Both the position numbers and the translations under genes were made by a program. 64,000 bases of DNA from an uncultured Prevotellaceae bacterium (GTDB taxonomy: Bacteria > Bacteroidota > Bacteroidia > Bacteroidales > Bacteroidaceae). Shown piece by piece: positions 8,068 through 11,715 of this stretch; positions within the stretch are counted from its first letter, which is position 1, and each line of letters begins with the position of its first letter. Where the stretch lies: contig CACZVE010000006.1 of NCBI GenBank assembly GCA_902784565.1, forward strand, positions 40,186 through 104,185. The letters are read 5' to 3'. The notes under the pieces were generated by a model. It saw only the letters and a program-made list of their open reading frames with translations. It made no database searches and was not told where the DNA came from.

Positions 8068-10590
8068 ATGAGGAAACTAATTCTTTGCTTGCTGCTCTGT
8101 GCGATAGTACAGGTAGCAGAGGCTCAACGCGTGAGTCGTAACTATAAAGACAAAACCATGTCGAAAGTACTCGTAGACCTGCGCCATGCTACCAACCGTT
8201 ATAAGATCTCGTTCATCCACAACGAATTGGAGGACTACACCGTGACGAAGAACTTCAACGGACTCACCATCCCCGAGGCCATCCGCGAATGCATCGGCTT
8301 CTATCCCATCACCATGAAGGTCGAGGGAGACAGTCTTATCTTCGTCGAAGCAGTGATTAAGACTGGAAGCAAGCTTATCGGACGGCTCATTGACAGCAAG
8401 AAGCACCCCGTCATCTACGCCAACATCGCCCTGCTGAACGTCAGCGACTCGGCCATCGTCAGCAGTGGTGTGAGCAACGAGAACGGCGACTTCGTCATTC
8501 CCACCACGGAGAAGCAGGTACGTGTACGTATCAGTTGCATCGGCTACGAGACACTCATTCTAAATTGTGAGACGGGTAACCTTGGCACCATCACCATGCA
8601 AGAGACTACCAACCACATTAGTGAAGTGGTAGTAGAGGGCAATCTGATGCACAGTCAACTTGATAAGGATGTATATATGCCAAACCAACGACAGCGTAAT
8701 GCTGCCAGTGACGGCCTCGGCCTGCTCTCGAACCTCGGCATCCCACAACTCGACGTGAACCCTATCACGCAAAGCATCAGTTCAAACAACGGCAAGAGTG
8801 TCAGCCTCTACATTGACGGACGCAAGGTCAATCAGGACGAACTCTCTCAGATACGTCCGAAGGACATCCTCCGCATAGAATTCCTTGAAACGCCTACTGG
8901 CAAATACGCAAACGATGAACAAGTGGTCAACTTCATCACGCGGCAATACAACTACGGCGGCTATGTGGCCTTGAAGAGCAACACCAAATTTATCAACGTT
9001 GGTGGCAACAACTCTGTACAGGTGAACCTCGACAACAAAAAGATGCACTACGTCATACTGGCTGGCATGAACTATTCCAACCAACGTAGCCTTGAGAGCC
9101 AGAAAGAAGAGGACATCACCACCGGTACGACCTCCTTCCACAAGAGCAGTTCCATCAGCAGCGACCACGTCAAAAACTGGACTTACTACGGACTGCTGCG
9201 CACCCGCTATCAGACAGATAAGCTAAACCTGACGGCGAGGGCTAAAATCAATTGGTCTAAACAGCCTGTGTATAACAACTATCAGGACATAACATATACA
9301 GGGGAAGTCAATGAGAAGACCCAGGCCATACGTTCCCGTGACTCCCGCAATATTGACCCATCCATTACCCTCAACGCCGACTATGCCATCAGCAAGAAAC
9401 AGAATCTGACAGTATATGCTGACCTGCAATTCGGCCATCACCGCTACAACTCCTGTCTCACAGAGAATGGCTATCTGGTAAACAACTACACAAAAGAGAA
9501 CAGCCTGACAAGCATGTCCTATGCCATCTACACCAACCAGTTGGGCGAACATGACGATATATGTATCCAGGTATTAGACCTCTATAGCAGATACGACGAT
9601 TATTATACCGGTACTACCGTTAGCGACCAGAAACTGCGTGCTAACGAATTACTGGTGTTTCCAATCTACAACCATCGTTTCAATAAGAAGCTGTATCTCT
9701 CGCTCAGGCCCTTTGGTTTCAGCCTGGCCCACTGGAGAATACAGGATTACCAGCAGAATCATTTCTCGTCGAGGGCAGCAGTCACAGCACGTTTCGTACC
9801 TCATCAGCAGCATAATCTGTCGGCAAGTTTCTACTTAGGCAACAACTTCCCGGATCCAGACATTACCAGCAATGTTGATCAGGAAATGAACCGCTATGAG
9901 ACTCAGCGCGGTAATCCCGAACTGGAAAAAGCCATCTTTGAGACGCAACTATTCACCTACAATTTCAATGCGAAAAACTACCGTCTCTCCATGACTGCCG
10001 AACACGAAGGCATTCACAATATCCCCAAGGAATGGTTCTATACCGAAGGCGACCATCTGATCCACTCCTATATCAGCGAGGGCAATGTCCATAAAATGAG
10101 TCTCAATGTCACTCAGACCTTCTTCTTGATGAAGCGCAATCTGCAACTGCAGGGCACGGTGGAAACTGTGCGTCATCTGGTGACAGGCTATCTTGGCGAT
10201 GCCAGTAACTGCCTCATCGGTAACATTAATGTCCGTTACTATGCTGGTCCATGGACATTCTATGCTTTCTTTAAAAGTGGCACAAAGGCATATCTGGCTG
10301 ATTACGGCCCTGCCTTCTTCCGCCAGCCTGCTGACTACGGTCTGAGCATCACTTACGGCAAAAGGAATCTAAACTGCCAATTAGGTGTGCGCAAACCTTT
10401 CGCCCATAGCCAATTCCACGAAATGTGGCGGAATGCAGATCTCTACTCTTTCAACCAACGGTCTGTACAGGCATCGCTGAAACCCTGGCTATATGTGAAC
10501 CTTGCCTACACTTTCGACTTTGGACGGAAGACGAAGCACGAGGATGTCCATGTGGACCAAACAAGCAAGTCGGCCATCCTCGGCAAGTAA
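8068..10590 (+). CDS. TonB-family outer-membrane receptor with N-terminal STN domain
   Basis: The 840-residue protein starts with a signal peptide (MRKLILCLL...AEAQ). Residues about 24-97 look like a secretin/TonB short N-terminal (STN) domain, which in transducers contacts the anti-sigma factor. Residues about 100-180 look like a carboxypeptidase-regulatory-like beta-sandwich, followed by a plug-like segment and a long aromatic beta-barrel region ending YVNLAYTFDFGRK. It fits the outer-membrane beta-barrel family next to ECF sigma factors. I chose the ATG at 8068 because it begins the signal peptide; the in-frame extension upstream overlaps the previous gene. The ligand is unknown; no SusD-like partner is adjacent. 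Confidence 0.85.
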   Translation: MRKLILCLLLCAIVQVAEAQRVSRNYKDKTMSKVLVDLRHATNRYKISFIHNELEDYTVTKNFNGLTIPEAIRECIGFYPITMKVEGDSLIFVEAVIKTGSKLIGRLIDSKKHPVIYANIALLNVSDSAIVSSGVSNENGDFVIPTTEKQVRVRISCIGYETLILNCETGNLGTITMQETTNHISEVVVEGNLMHSQLDKDVYMPNQRQRNAASDGLGLLSNLGIPQLDVNPITQSISSNNGKSVSLYIDGRKVNQDELSQIRPKDILRIEFLETPTGKYANDEQVVNFITRQYNYGGYVALKSNTKFINVGGNNSVQVNLDNKKMHYVILAGMNYSNQRSLESQKEEDITTGTTSFHKSSSISSDHVKNWTYYGLLRTRYQTDKLNLTARAKINWSKQPVYNNYQDITYTGEVNEKTQAIRSRDSRNIDPSITLNADYAISKKQNLTVYADLQFGHHRYNSCLTENGYLVNNYTKENSLTSMSYAIYTNQLGEHDDICIQVLDLYSRYDDYYTGTTVSDQKLRANELLVFPIYNHRFNKKLYLSLRPFGFSLAHWRIQDYQQNHFSSRAAVTARFVPHQQHNLSASFYLGNNFPDPDITSNVDQEMNRYETQRGNPELEKAIFETQLFTYNFNAKNYRLSMTAEHEGIHNIPKEWFYTEGDHLIHSYISEGNVHKMSLNVTQTFFLMKRNLQLQGTVETVRHLVTGYLGDASNCLIGNINVRYYAGPWTFYAFFKSGTKAYLADYGPAFFRQPADYGLSITYGKRNLNCQLGVRKPFAHSQFHEMWRNADLYSFNQRSVQASLKPWLYVNLAYTFDFGRKTKHEDVHVDQTSKSAILGK

Positions 10591-10596
10591 TTCCGA

Positions 10597-10634
10597 AAAA
10601 AATCCGCAGAAAGTTTGCATCTGCGGATTTTTTT
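10597..10634 (+). terminator. Terminator after the receptor gene, with a promoter element in its loop
   Basis: The left arm (10597-10610, ending AATCCGCAGA) pairs with TCTGCGGATTTTT (from 10620), followed by T residues. The loop AAGTTTGCA contains TTTG (10614-10617), placed 20 bases before the next -7 box. Confidence 0.85.
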
Positions 10635-10636
10635 AT

Positions 10637-10646
10637 TTACCTTTGC
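10637..10646 (+). promoter_or_regulatory. Promoter of the corA transcript
   Basis: TTACCTTTGC is the -7 element, and TTTG at 10614-10617 (inside the terminator loop) is a plausible -33 element with 20-base spacing. The transcript would start near 10651, leaving a leader of about 138 bases before corA. Confidence 0.75.
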
Positions 10647-10650
10647 ACCC

Positions 10651-10788
10651 GATAAACCAAATTAGTAACAAAATTATGGACGATTACCCGGCGGACAATT
10701 ACGATTTGTAATGGCGGGGGATAGCGAGCAAGGCTGCTAATCCCTTTGCCGCTAAAACCATTTCACAAACGAAAAAAGGATTAGCACA
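10651..10788 (+). promoter_or_regulatory. Structured corA leader with two mutually exclusive hairpins
   Basis: Hairpin A pairs GCGG/CCGC (10714-10717 with 10749-10752), GGGAT/ATCCC (10718-10722 with 10740-10744) and AGC/GCT. Hairpin B pairs GCTAATCC (10736-10743) perfectly with GGATTAGC (10778-10785), 3 bases before the corA ATG. Both use 10736-10743, so they exclude each other. B would hide the translation start; A would free it. An 11-codon ORF ends directly before hairpin A. The structure is seen in the sequence; regulation is inferred. Confidence 0.55.
10676..10711 (+). CDS. Acidic 11-residue leader peptide MDDYPADNYDL
   Basis: ATG-GAC-GAT-TAC-CCG-GCG-GAC-AAT-TAC-GAT-TTG-TAA encodes MDDYPADNYDL: four Asp, one Pro and no basic residue. 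The ATG follows an A-rich stretch about 25 bases after the expected transcription start, which is a normal context for Bacteroidota translation. The stop lies 2 bases before hairpin A of the leader. Nascent chains with runs of acidic residues and Pro are known to destabilise ribosomes at low Mg, as in the mgtL leader of Salmonella. Salmonella corA also has a leader ORF, corL. Whether this one is translated is unproven. Confidence 0.45.
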   Translation: MDDYPADNYDL

Positions 10789-11715
10789 ATGAAGACATTC
10801 TGGAACACCCAAGGCGGACTGAGCCAACTCACAGAGTGGCAGCCCAATTGCTGGATACAGGTGACATGCCCCACCGAAGATGACCAGCGCGAACTTGAAG
10901 AGAAGTTCAATATCCCCGACTATTTCATGTCGGACATCAGCGATACCGACGAGCGTGCCCGTTATGAGTACGACGACGGTTGGATGCTCATCATCCTCCG
11001 TATCCCCTACGTTAAGGAGATACGGTCAAGAACACCATATACCACCGTACCCCTCGGTATCATCCACAAGCGCGACGTCACCATCACCGTCTGCTTCTAC
11101 GAGACGAATATGATGATTGATTTCGTTTCGTACCAACAGAAGCGCGGCGAGGGGTTTACCGACCATGTCGATATGATCTTCCGTATCTTCCTTTCCAGTG
11201 CCGTCTGGTACCTGAAACGTCTGAAACAGATCTCCATGCTCGTCGACAAGGCCAAGCGCAACCTCGACAAGGAGGTGAACAACGAGAGTCTGATTGGTCT
11301 GAGCCGTCTGCAGGACTCGCTCACCTACTTCCAGACCTCCATCCGAGGCAACGAGACCCTGCTTTCGAAACTTAAATTCAAACTCCAGATTGACGAGTTG
11401 GATGCCGACCTTATTGAGGATGTCAACATCGAGATGACACAGGCCCGCGAGACCACTCTCATCTACTCCAACATCCTGGAATCGACGATGGACACCTACC
11501 AGAGTATCATCAACAACAATATGAACACGGTGATGCGTACCCTGACTTCCGTCACCATCATCATGATGATTCCCACGCTGATTACTTCGATGTTCGGTAT
11601 GAACCTCGTCAACGGTATGGAATCCAAGCCCTGGGGTTTCATCATCGCCATCATCCTCTCCATTGGCGTTTCTGGTGCCTGCTGGTGGTTTTTCCGCCAC
11701 AAAAGGCTCGTTTAA
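10789..11715 (+). CDS. corA: CorA-family divalent cation transporter
   Basis: CorA proteins are pentameric inner-membrane channels for Mg2+ and sometimes Co2+ or Ni2+. This one has 308 residues: a cytoplasmic alpha/beta domain, a long stalk helix (about 140-235, WYLKRLKQISML..., then DTYQSIINNNMNTVMRTL), a first membrane helix ending in the signature FGMNLVNG (GMN motif, about residue 268), and a second helix ending in a basic FFRHKRLV tail. The periplasmic loop NGMESKP is short, as expected. The acidic residues in the loop fit cation attraction. Its leader (10651-10788) suggests regulated translation, possibly by Mg. Confidence 0.92.
   Translation: MKTFWNTQGGLSQLTEWQPNCWIQVTCPTEDDQRELEEKFNIPDYFMSDISDTDERARYEYDDGWMLIILRIPYVKEIRSRTPYTTVPLGIIHKRDVTITVCFYETNMMIDFVSYQQKRGEGFTDHVDMIFRIFLSSAVWYLKRLKQISMLVDKAKRNLDKEVNNESLIGLSRLQDSLTYFQTSIRGNETLLSKLKFKLQIDELDADLIEDVNIEMTQARETTLIYSNILESTMDTYQSIINNNMNTVMRTLTSVTIIMMIPTLITSMFGMNLVNGMESKPWGFIIAIILSIGVSGACWWFFRHKRLV

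Follow-up and report, generated by a model that had tools for sequence, protein, structure and literature searches.

A conserved acidic upstream reading frame and two mutually exclusive helices form a candidate translational switch ahead of corA in Bacteroidales

The leader of the corA gene in the window (the whole stretch of 64,000 nucleotides from an uncultured Prevotellaceae bacterium analysed here) is, in our assessment, likely to be a translational switch, in which inefficient translation of a short upstream open reading frame (uORF) would free the corA start, most likely in response to low Mg2+. Ribosomes would initiate on the short uORF, which begins with Met-Asp-Asp; where they read it to its stop codon, the terminating ribosome would cover the 5' arm of a first hairpin, A, and block it. 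With A blocked, region 3 (positions 10736-10743) would pair with region 4 (10778-10785) into helix B and corA initiation would be off. An early pause or fall-off at the acidic codons would instead let A form and take up region 3, leaving corA translatable. The layout thus probably switches corA on when ribosomes struggle on the uORF, as expected at low Mg2+. We favour low intracellular Mg2+ as the signal, since nascent chains with acidic N-termini reportedly make ribosomes unstable under Mg2+ shortage.

All elements lie on the forward strand. The putative target of the leader, corA (10789-11715), encodes a member of the CorA family (PF01544, E 7.5e-49), whose nearest named relatives among the matches listed come from rumen Prevotella assemblies; on this basis we take the host for a Prevotella. 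The uORF (10676-10711; ATG 10676-10678, TAA 10709-10711) is read directly from the sequence as the 11 codons MDDYPADNYDL, as an earlier note on this DNA had it, and its acidic codons 2-3 (GAC GAT, 10679-10684) are, from their conservation, the proposed ribosome-destabilising element. Hairpin A (10713-10750), the putative anti-sequestering state, is predicted by RNAfold and backed by covariation in 29 leaders; it does follow the uORF stop as the earlier note stated, but its 5' arm opens at the second base after that stop, about one base closer than claimed. Region 3, GCTAATCC (10736-10743), belongs by sequence and fold to the 3' side of A and is also the 5' arm of helix B, while region 4, GGATTAGC (10778-10785), is the 3' arm of B by sequence and covariation. 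The two regions are exact complements, which bears out the perfect 8-bp pairing described before, and since A as folded takes in the same bases 10736-10743 that B uses, A and B exclude each other, again as proposed. Only a short linker separates hairpin A from the corA start region in the window, and the corA ATG (10789-10791) stands 3 bases past the end of region 4. The window leader is more stable than its shuffled versions (z -2.34; 4 of 200 shuffles at least as stable). Its minimum free energy structure contains a further possible local hairpin (10751-10785), which would also pair region 4 in the presence of A; judged by eye, some relatives, L008 and L029 among them, could not fold this hairpin in the same way.

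Upstream of the uORF, TTTG (10614-10617) and, 20 bases further, TACCTTTG (10638-10645) make up what we take to be a Bacteroidota-type promoter (10614-10645). With the promoter offset that we assume, the transcript presumably starts at about 10651. This predicted start lies upstream of the uORF, so that a start downstream of 10711, raised earlier as a case that would speak against the reading, is unlikely. Of 193 CorA-retrieved leaders, 172 have a TAnnTTTG box in the 60 bases before the uORF, against 3.4% of base-shuffled stretches, and in 141 of the 172 the box lies 35-39 bases from the uORF ATG (38 in the window). At 10601-10636, an inverted repeat (AATCCGCAG...CTGCGGATT) followed by a T run is likely to be the terminator of the upstream gene and overlaps the corA promoter region; it is absent from our terminator scan, probably because of its long loop. 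The idea that hairpin A itself is a terminator was dropped, T-rich tracts after A being seen by eye in one genus only and by the scan not at all in the window.

The uORF is a constant companion of this gene within the genus. CorA orthologues were collected by protein and not by uORF; the genus-level set, part of the 176 genomes with a CorA match, combined 30 loci, the best 80 loci, 40 picked by hand and L350, with some species repeated, and five loci cut by contig ends were set aside. A uORF beginning MDD precedes corA in 146 of the 146 loci with enough upstream DNA, which represent 121 distinct leaders. It has 11 codons in 83 of the first 85 unique leaders, and all three stop codons occur at its end. 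In the 144 leaders without an extra Ile codon, codons 3 and 4 vary synonymously only (GAT or GAC for Asp3, TAC or TAT for Tyr4, the latter in all 144), which points to selection on the peptide. One sequence, shared by L027 and L110, has ATA in place of the uORF ATG, but an in-frame ATG three bases upstream restores the start (MIDDYPA). Position 5 of the same 144 leaders is Pro in 116, His in 24, Leu in 3 and Tyr in 1. The uORF had been described as an Asp/Pro reading frame; its acidic residues are indeed kept, as Met-Asp-Asp/Glu, across the order, but the Pro is not, so that 'acidic' and not 'Asp/Pro' defines it, and a conserved Asp/Pro motif was rejected. At the nucleotide level, codon 2 (10679-10681 in the window) is GAC in 190 of 191 leaders, the synonymous GAT being avoided, where codon 3 varies among GAT, GAC and GAA.

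Beyond the genus, a strict uORF pattern that includes the Pro matched 46 of the 301 genomes searched in the family and 2 of the 198 in the order, namely the window's own and one without corA nearby. A relaxed pattern matched 131 of the 301 family genomes, in 14 of 30 genera. Among the 90 relaxed-pattern matches that were fetched (L183-L272), 83 precede corA and the remaining 7 do not, and for g3 and g13, two of the 14 genera, there are chance matches alone; L142, L199-L203, L268 and L269, with no corA in the DNA at hand, were taken as chance and rejected as uORF loci. We then turned to family genomes picked for the absence of the relaxed pattern, in one batch of 32, of which two do have a chance match, and another of 26: the CorA orthologue loci from these still have a uORF in 23 of 31 cases and none in 8, two positives (L307 and L308) having been scored by eye because their uORFs exceed the 30-codon limit of the script. 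The family variants include MDDSYPA, MDDYYPE, MDDYLTE, MDDYHQR and MDDSNPRPYSKSIN; L282 has no uORF though it comes from the genus supplying MDDSNPRPYSKSIN, and the positive L280 is far off, with 167 bases from uORF stop to corA.

Across the order, 32 of 148 genomes besides the window's own have a CorA match with E < 1e-40, most others holding distant CorA relatives only, or none. Of these 32 matches, 29 were fetched, each from a different family, and a Met-Asp-Asp/Glu uORF (such as MDDYHPEID, MDDYYLCC, MDEGPRYRKIKL or MDDGPYHQQ) precedes corA in 22 of the 29; one of the 22, L336, is doubtful because its ORF stops 208 bases before corA. Seven have none, although L347, scored among them, carries the near form MDGVPDN. 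Further out, within the class, 4 of 23 loci have the uORF and 19 do not. The same test applied to 174 other ORFs of at least 120 codons from the window and its relatives gave 0 of 174. Among distant CorA paralogues, 7 of 18 offered no usable ORF and the rest were negative, some of the ORFs considered being possibly those of neighbours, so that we make no claim for these paralogues. Position 4 may be Y, G, S, V, H, D or P across the order, and Asp2 followed by Asp or Glu at position 3 is the only uORF feature common to genus, family, order and class, a conservation to be weighed against the misses, as uORFs beyond the genus were recognised by their MD[DE] start. Judged by sequence, the uORF with its predicted A/B layout is far more widespread than the earlier note could tell and is carried by relatives across the order.

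The alignment of corA leaders that had been proposed as a check bears the two stems out: the acidic codons are kept, and both stems show compensatory changes. It comprised 29 genus leaders and was built from sequence without reference to structure, leaving out tails longer than 68 bases and near-duplicates (31 kept) and then, by hand, L095 and L147. Helix B is paired at 86.2% in these leaders and at 23-45% when slid, and hairpin A at 75.4% against 39-57%, a slide control that favours the tested structures inasmuch as both were drawn from one row, L150. Eight of the 11 pairs of B have changed on both sides, a number reached by 0 of 500 shuffles, and its doubly changed cells number 28 against 14.0 +/- 2.7 in shuffles. 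For A, all nine pairs show changes in both arms, a count that 19 of 500 shuffles attain as well, with 32 doubly changed cells against 18.4 +/- 3.2 and a covariation score equalled by 0 of 500 shuffles; further pair types in A are no more frequent than in shuffles (215 of 500).

A larger, non-redundant set tells the same of folding strength. From 307 leaders, which include loci found by the uORF pattern, 119 were retained after dropping tails outside 30-130 bases and sequences more than 78% similar; the genus leaders among them are related to one another, which is to be borne in mind for all these leader statistics. The mean z against shuffles is -2.27 for A and -2.79 for B, and A beats 95% of shuffles in 76 and B in 86 of the 119 leaders. 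Strong and overlapping A and B occur together in 72% of the 119 leaders against 5.0% of 2380 shuffles, with cut-offs (A -11 and B -13 kcal/mol, overlap 5) set after the z-scores had been seen; an overlap of at least 3 bases is by itself uninformative (92% of leaders against 65% of shuffles). In other genera the A/B plan is kept with unrelated stem sequences: in L117, TGAGTCTTTGC has two alternative partners, the bases around the stop of the uORF and GCAAAGGTTCA ahead of corA, and by eye L183 and L322 have the same alternative pairing. Comparison of the leaders thus shows the uORF, both predicted helices, their mutual exclusion, the position of the uORF stop at A and the tie to this CorA to be conserved. 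A first test of cognate against non-cognate B arms (-16.5 against -12.7; cognate best in 9 of 81) was badly designed and has been replaced, since the stretches compared were overlapping and a single stem sequence is common to most members of the genus. In many species, L109, L089, L049 and L099 among them, the linker from A to corA is full of simple or low-complexity repeats (such as CTCGTACCTCGTACCACG or CAATTGTCAATTAT); these repeat linkers, longer than 100 bases in L109, separate the arms of B, both of which are kept.

The direction of the switch, from a completed uORF to helix B, is a result of modelling, with the ribosome represented as a footprint unable to pair and kinetics ignored. Over the 119 leaders, the mean probability of B is 0.49 in the free leader, 0.38 when a ribosome stands at codon 3 and 0.70 when it terminates at the stop, the corresponding values in shuffled leaders being 0.20, 0.25 and 0.22. 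In 64 of 119 leaders the terminating value is higher than that at codon 3 by over 0.1, in 11 it falls short, and in shuffles it is higher in 56 of 357; the difference between the terminating and stalled states has p 8e-20 against shuffles. Modelled accessibility also moves in the expected direction, the stalled value less the terminating one averaging +0.081 in the 119 leaders and -0.028 in shuffles. In the window leader, the probability of B is 0.00 free, 0.00 stalled and 0.46 terminating, or 0.94 with a wider footprint. Region 4 there is 18% unpaired whether the leader is free or stalled; the narrow terminating footprint brings this to 31% and the wider one to 1%, and the accessibility model gives no effect for this leader (0.47, 0.47, 0.45, 0.48). 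A detail that the earlier note had missed is that GGATTAGC, when the window leader is free, finds a further local partner in the bases beginning at 10751, so that the modelled ON state is not open. The modelled accessibility of the window leader thus departs from the scheme, though the average of the 119 leaders follows it; the earlier proposal that a ribosome at the stop lets B form agrees with the model over those leaders (0.70 against 0.38) and parts from it in the accessibility of the window leader. The sign proposed then, completed uORF translation turning the transporter off, is the same as that reported for corL and mgtQ (PMC11552253, PMC8092293).

From this layout we infer that the signal is Mg2+, that drop-off or a pause is the sensing event, and that control is translational rather than transcriptional. 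The same uORF-run A/B switch might sense general translation trouble (slow elongation, or a shortage of charged tRNA or rescue factors) in place of Mg2+, which we regard as rather unlikely. The A/B logic would need only slow or aborted uORF elongation, Tyr4 is invariant in the ordinary genus-level leaders, and the mgtC leader uORFs of Salmonella, mgtM and mgtP, are reported to respond to ATP and to charged tRNA-Pro (PMC8092293). Yet the two acidic codons alone are kept across the order where position 4 varies, so that no single tRNA except those for Asp and Glu could be read throughout, and the fetched relaxed-pattern matches lie overwhelmingly upstream of this one CorA, both of which speak against it.

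Transcription attenuation, intrinsic or Rho-dependent, in place of start-codon sequestration is unlikely, and somewhat less probable again. E. coli corA is reported to be under Rho termination and corL translation (PMC11552253), which gives this reading its precedent; however, no terminator-like site was found in 10560-10800 by a scan that covers intrinsic terminators and misses long-loop ones, and helix B extends to within 3 bases of the corA start codon. That the RNA itself senses the ion, as a ligand- or Mg2+-binding riboswitch with the uORF incidental, is very improbable: two mutually exclusive structures do flank the start region and Mg2+ riboswitches are known (PMC6429828), but the stems differ completely between genera while the peptide start is kept, no conserved unpaired core was noticed by eye, and Rfam gave nothing near a gathering score in 10600-10830, hence no known cis-regulatory RNA family, tRNA being its only match in the whole window. 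Hardly any credence attaches to a uORF that merely loads ribosomes for re-initiation or coupling to a constitutively expressed corA, a role by which leader ORFs are proposed to raise downstream translation (PMC4833913), as it leaves both the conserved acidic residues and the two covarying, mutually exclusive helices unexplained.

For the Mg2+-responsive translational switch that we prefer, mgtQ of Salmonella is by analogy the closest parallel, one that the earlier note had overlooked. This 8-codon uORF, with Asp2 and Glu5, is reported to control mgtB through stems 2:3 and 3:4; stem 3:4 hides the ribosome-binding site, and translation of uORF and transporter is inversely related, the acidic codons lowering that of mgtQ, an effect counteracted by L31 (rpmE1), and raising that of mgtB, while the mgtQ Pro codon acts through base pairing and not as an amino acid (PMC8092293). 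The present leader shares with it a short uORF with Asp2 and acidic residues near the start (here Asp2 and Asp/Glu3), its place before a Mg2+ transporter gene (here a CorA of family PF01544) and, by comparison and modelling, exclusive stems of which the equivalent of 3:4 lies at the transporter start. Unlike mgtQ, which sits between mgtC and mgtB in a Salmonella operon, it stands upstream of a Bacteroidales corA behind a predicted promoter of its own, so that it would work like mgtQ without being an mgtQ. A counterpart of the mgtQ stem 1:2 lacks covariation in the present leaders (101 of 500 shuffles reach its paired percentage). Pairing of uORF codons 5-6 with the 5' arm of A is stronger in cognate than in permuted combinations (mean -9.56 against -8.51, 0 of 2000), a difference that rests on two clades, and the mean z of stem 1:2 is -0.41 in 41 genus leaders (p 0.018), two other groups being not significant. 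With no covariation and weak shuffle support in the genus alone, such a trp-like third helix was left out of the main claim.

The corL-corA leaders of Salmonella and E. coli are reported to have two alternative structures and inverse expression of corL and corA; not long ago CorA was still regarded as constitutive in E. coli (PMC11552253). In Rho-dependent leaders of the corL and mgtL kind, expression falls as intracellular Mg2+ goes up. The likeness is one of layout, a uORF ahead of corA and two alternative structures; the reported output there is Rho-dependent termination at about position 211-220 of the E. coli leader, whereas here the predicted structure reaches the corA start region. MgtL, which with intrinsic ribosome destabilisation reportedly goes back to original work by Chadani et al., likewise has acidic residues soon after the start Met. 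These are reported to promote ribosome drop-off at low Mg2+, turning a Mg2+ importer on (PMC11282234). The MgtL motif is EPDP and its output Rho-dependent termination, whereas Pro is optional in the present uORF. Within the same phylum, Bacteroides translational attenuators such as the tetQ leader combine a leader peptide with alternative hairpins, parts similar to those proposed here, but respond to antibiotics and do not serve a metal transporter. The gammaproteobacterial corA motif, a structured RNA upstream of corA and a riboswitch candidate, is reported from Gammaproteobacteria and metagenomic DNA only, the part of its description drawn on here mentioning no MDD uORF (Stav et al. 2019, PMC6429828). 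Long 5' UTRs of B. thetaiotaomicron are reported to hold sORFs reminiscent of leader peptides, corA being absent from the main text (PMC7366714). No description of a Bacteroidota corA leader was found among the matches listed in a literature search with supplements and most subscription papers outside its scope, within which the earlier statement that nothing like it is known from Bacteroidota holds.

If the proposed switch is real, CorA would be under uORF control in most sampled Bacteroidales with this CorA type. Bacteroidales are prominent in the gut and the rumen. The use of acidic nascent chains to destabilise ribosomes, and so to sense Mg2+, would in that case have come up repeatedly and not be an enterobacterial peculiarity, and the residues that follow Met-Asp-Asp in nature (first Y, S, G, H or P, next P, H, Y, L and others) would provide a ready series of variants for studying destabilising residues. 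We give about even odds to the wider view that the device is ancestral to Bacteroidales and reaches other parts of the class, with the ribosome as Mg2+ sensor, the two acidic codons as the whole sensor, stems free to change provided that A and B exclude each other, and an origin independent of the enterobacterial mgtQ, mgtL and corL; some other families of the class may retain it in reduced form, as an MDDD start that lies out of frame, 7 bases before the corA start. With region 4 there would also be a switch acting on translation in a class in which, reportedly, ribosomes do not recognise Shine-Dalgarno sequences (PMC9976891). For the same reason it is noteworthy that GGAGG occurs at most 16 bases from the corA start in 40 of 193 leaders.

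In the class loci L360, L361, L362 and L367 (by eye also L365), an out-of-frame ORF beginning MDDD starts 7 bases upstream of the corA ATG; L363 (MEDDPD) and L371 (MNDD, by eye) have variants of this overlapping start, and the other 16 of the 23 class loci beyond the order are without it. This may be the same device in a version with overlapping starts. The five out-of-frame ORFs that were read start at about 1466-1484 and run for 26-51 codons, hence ending inside corA.
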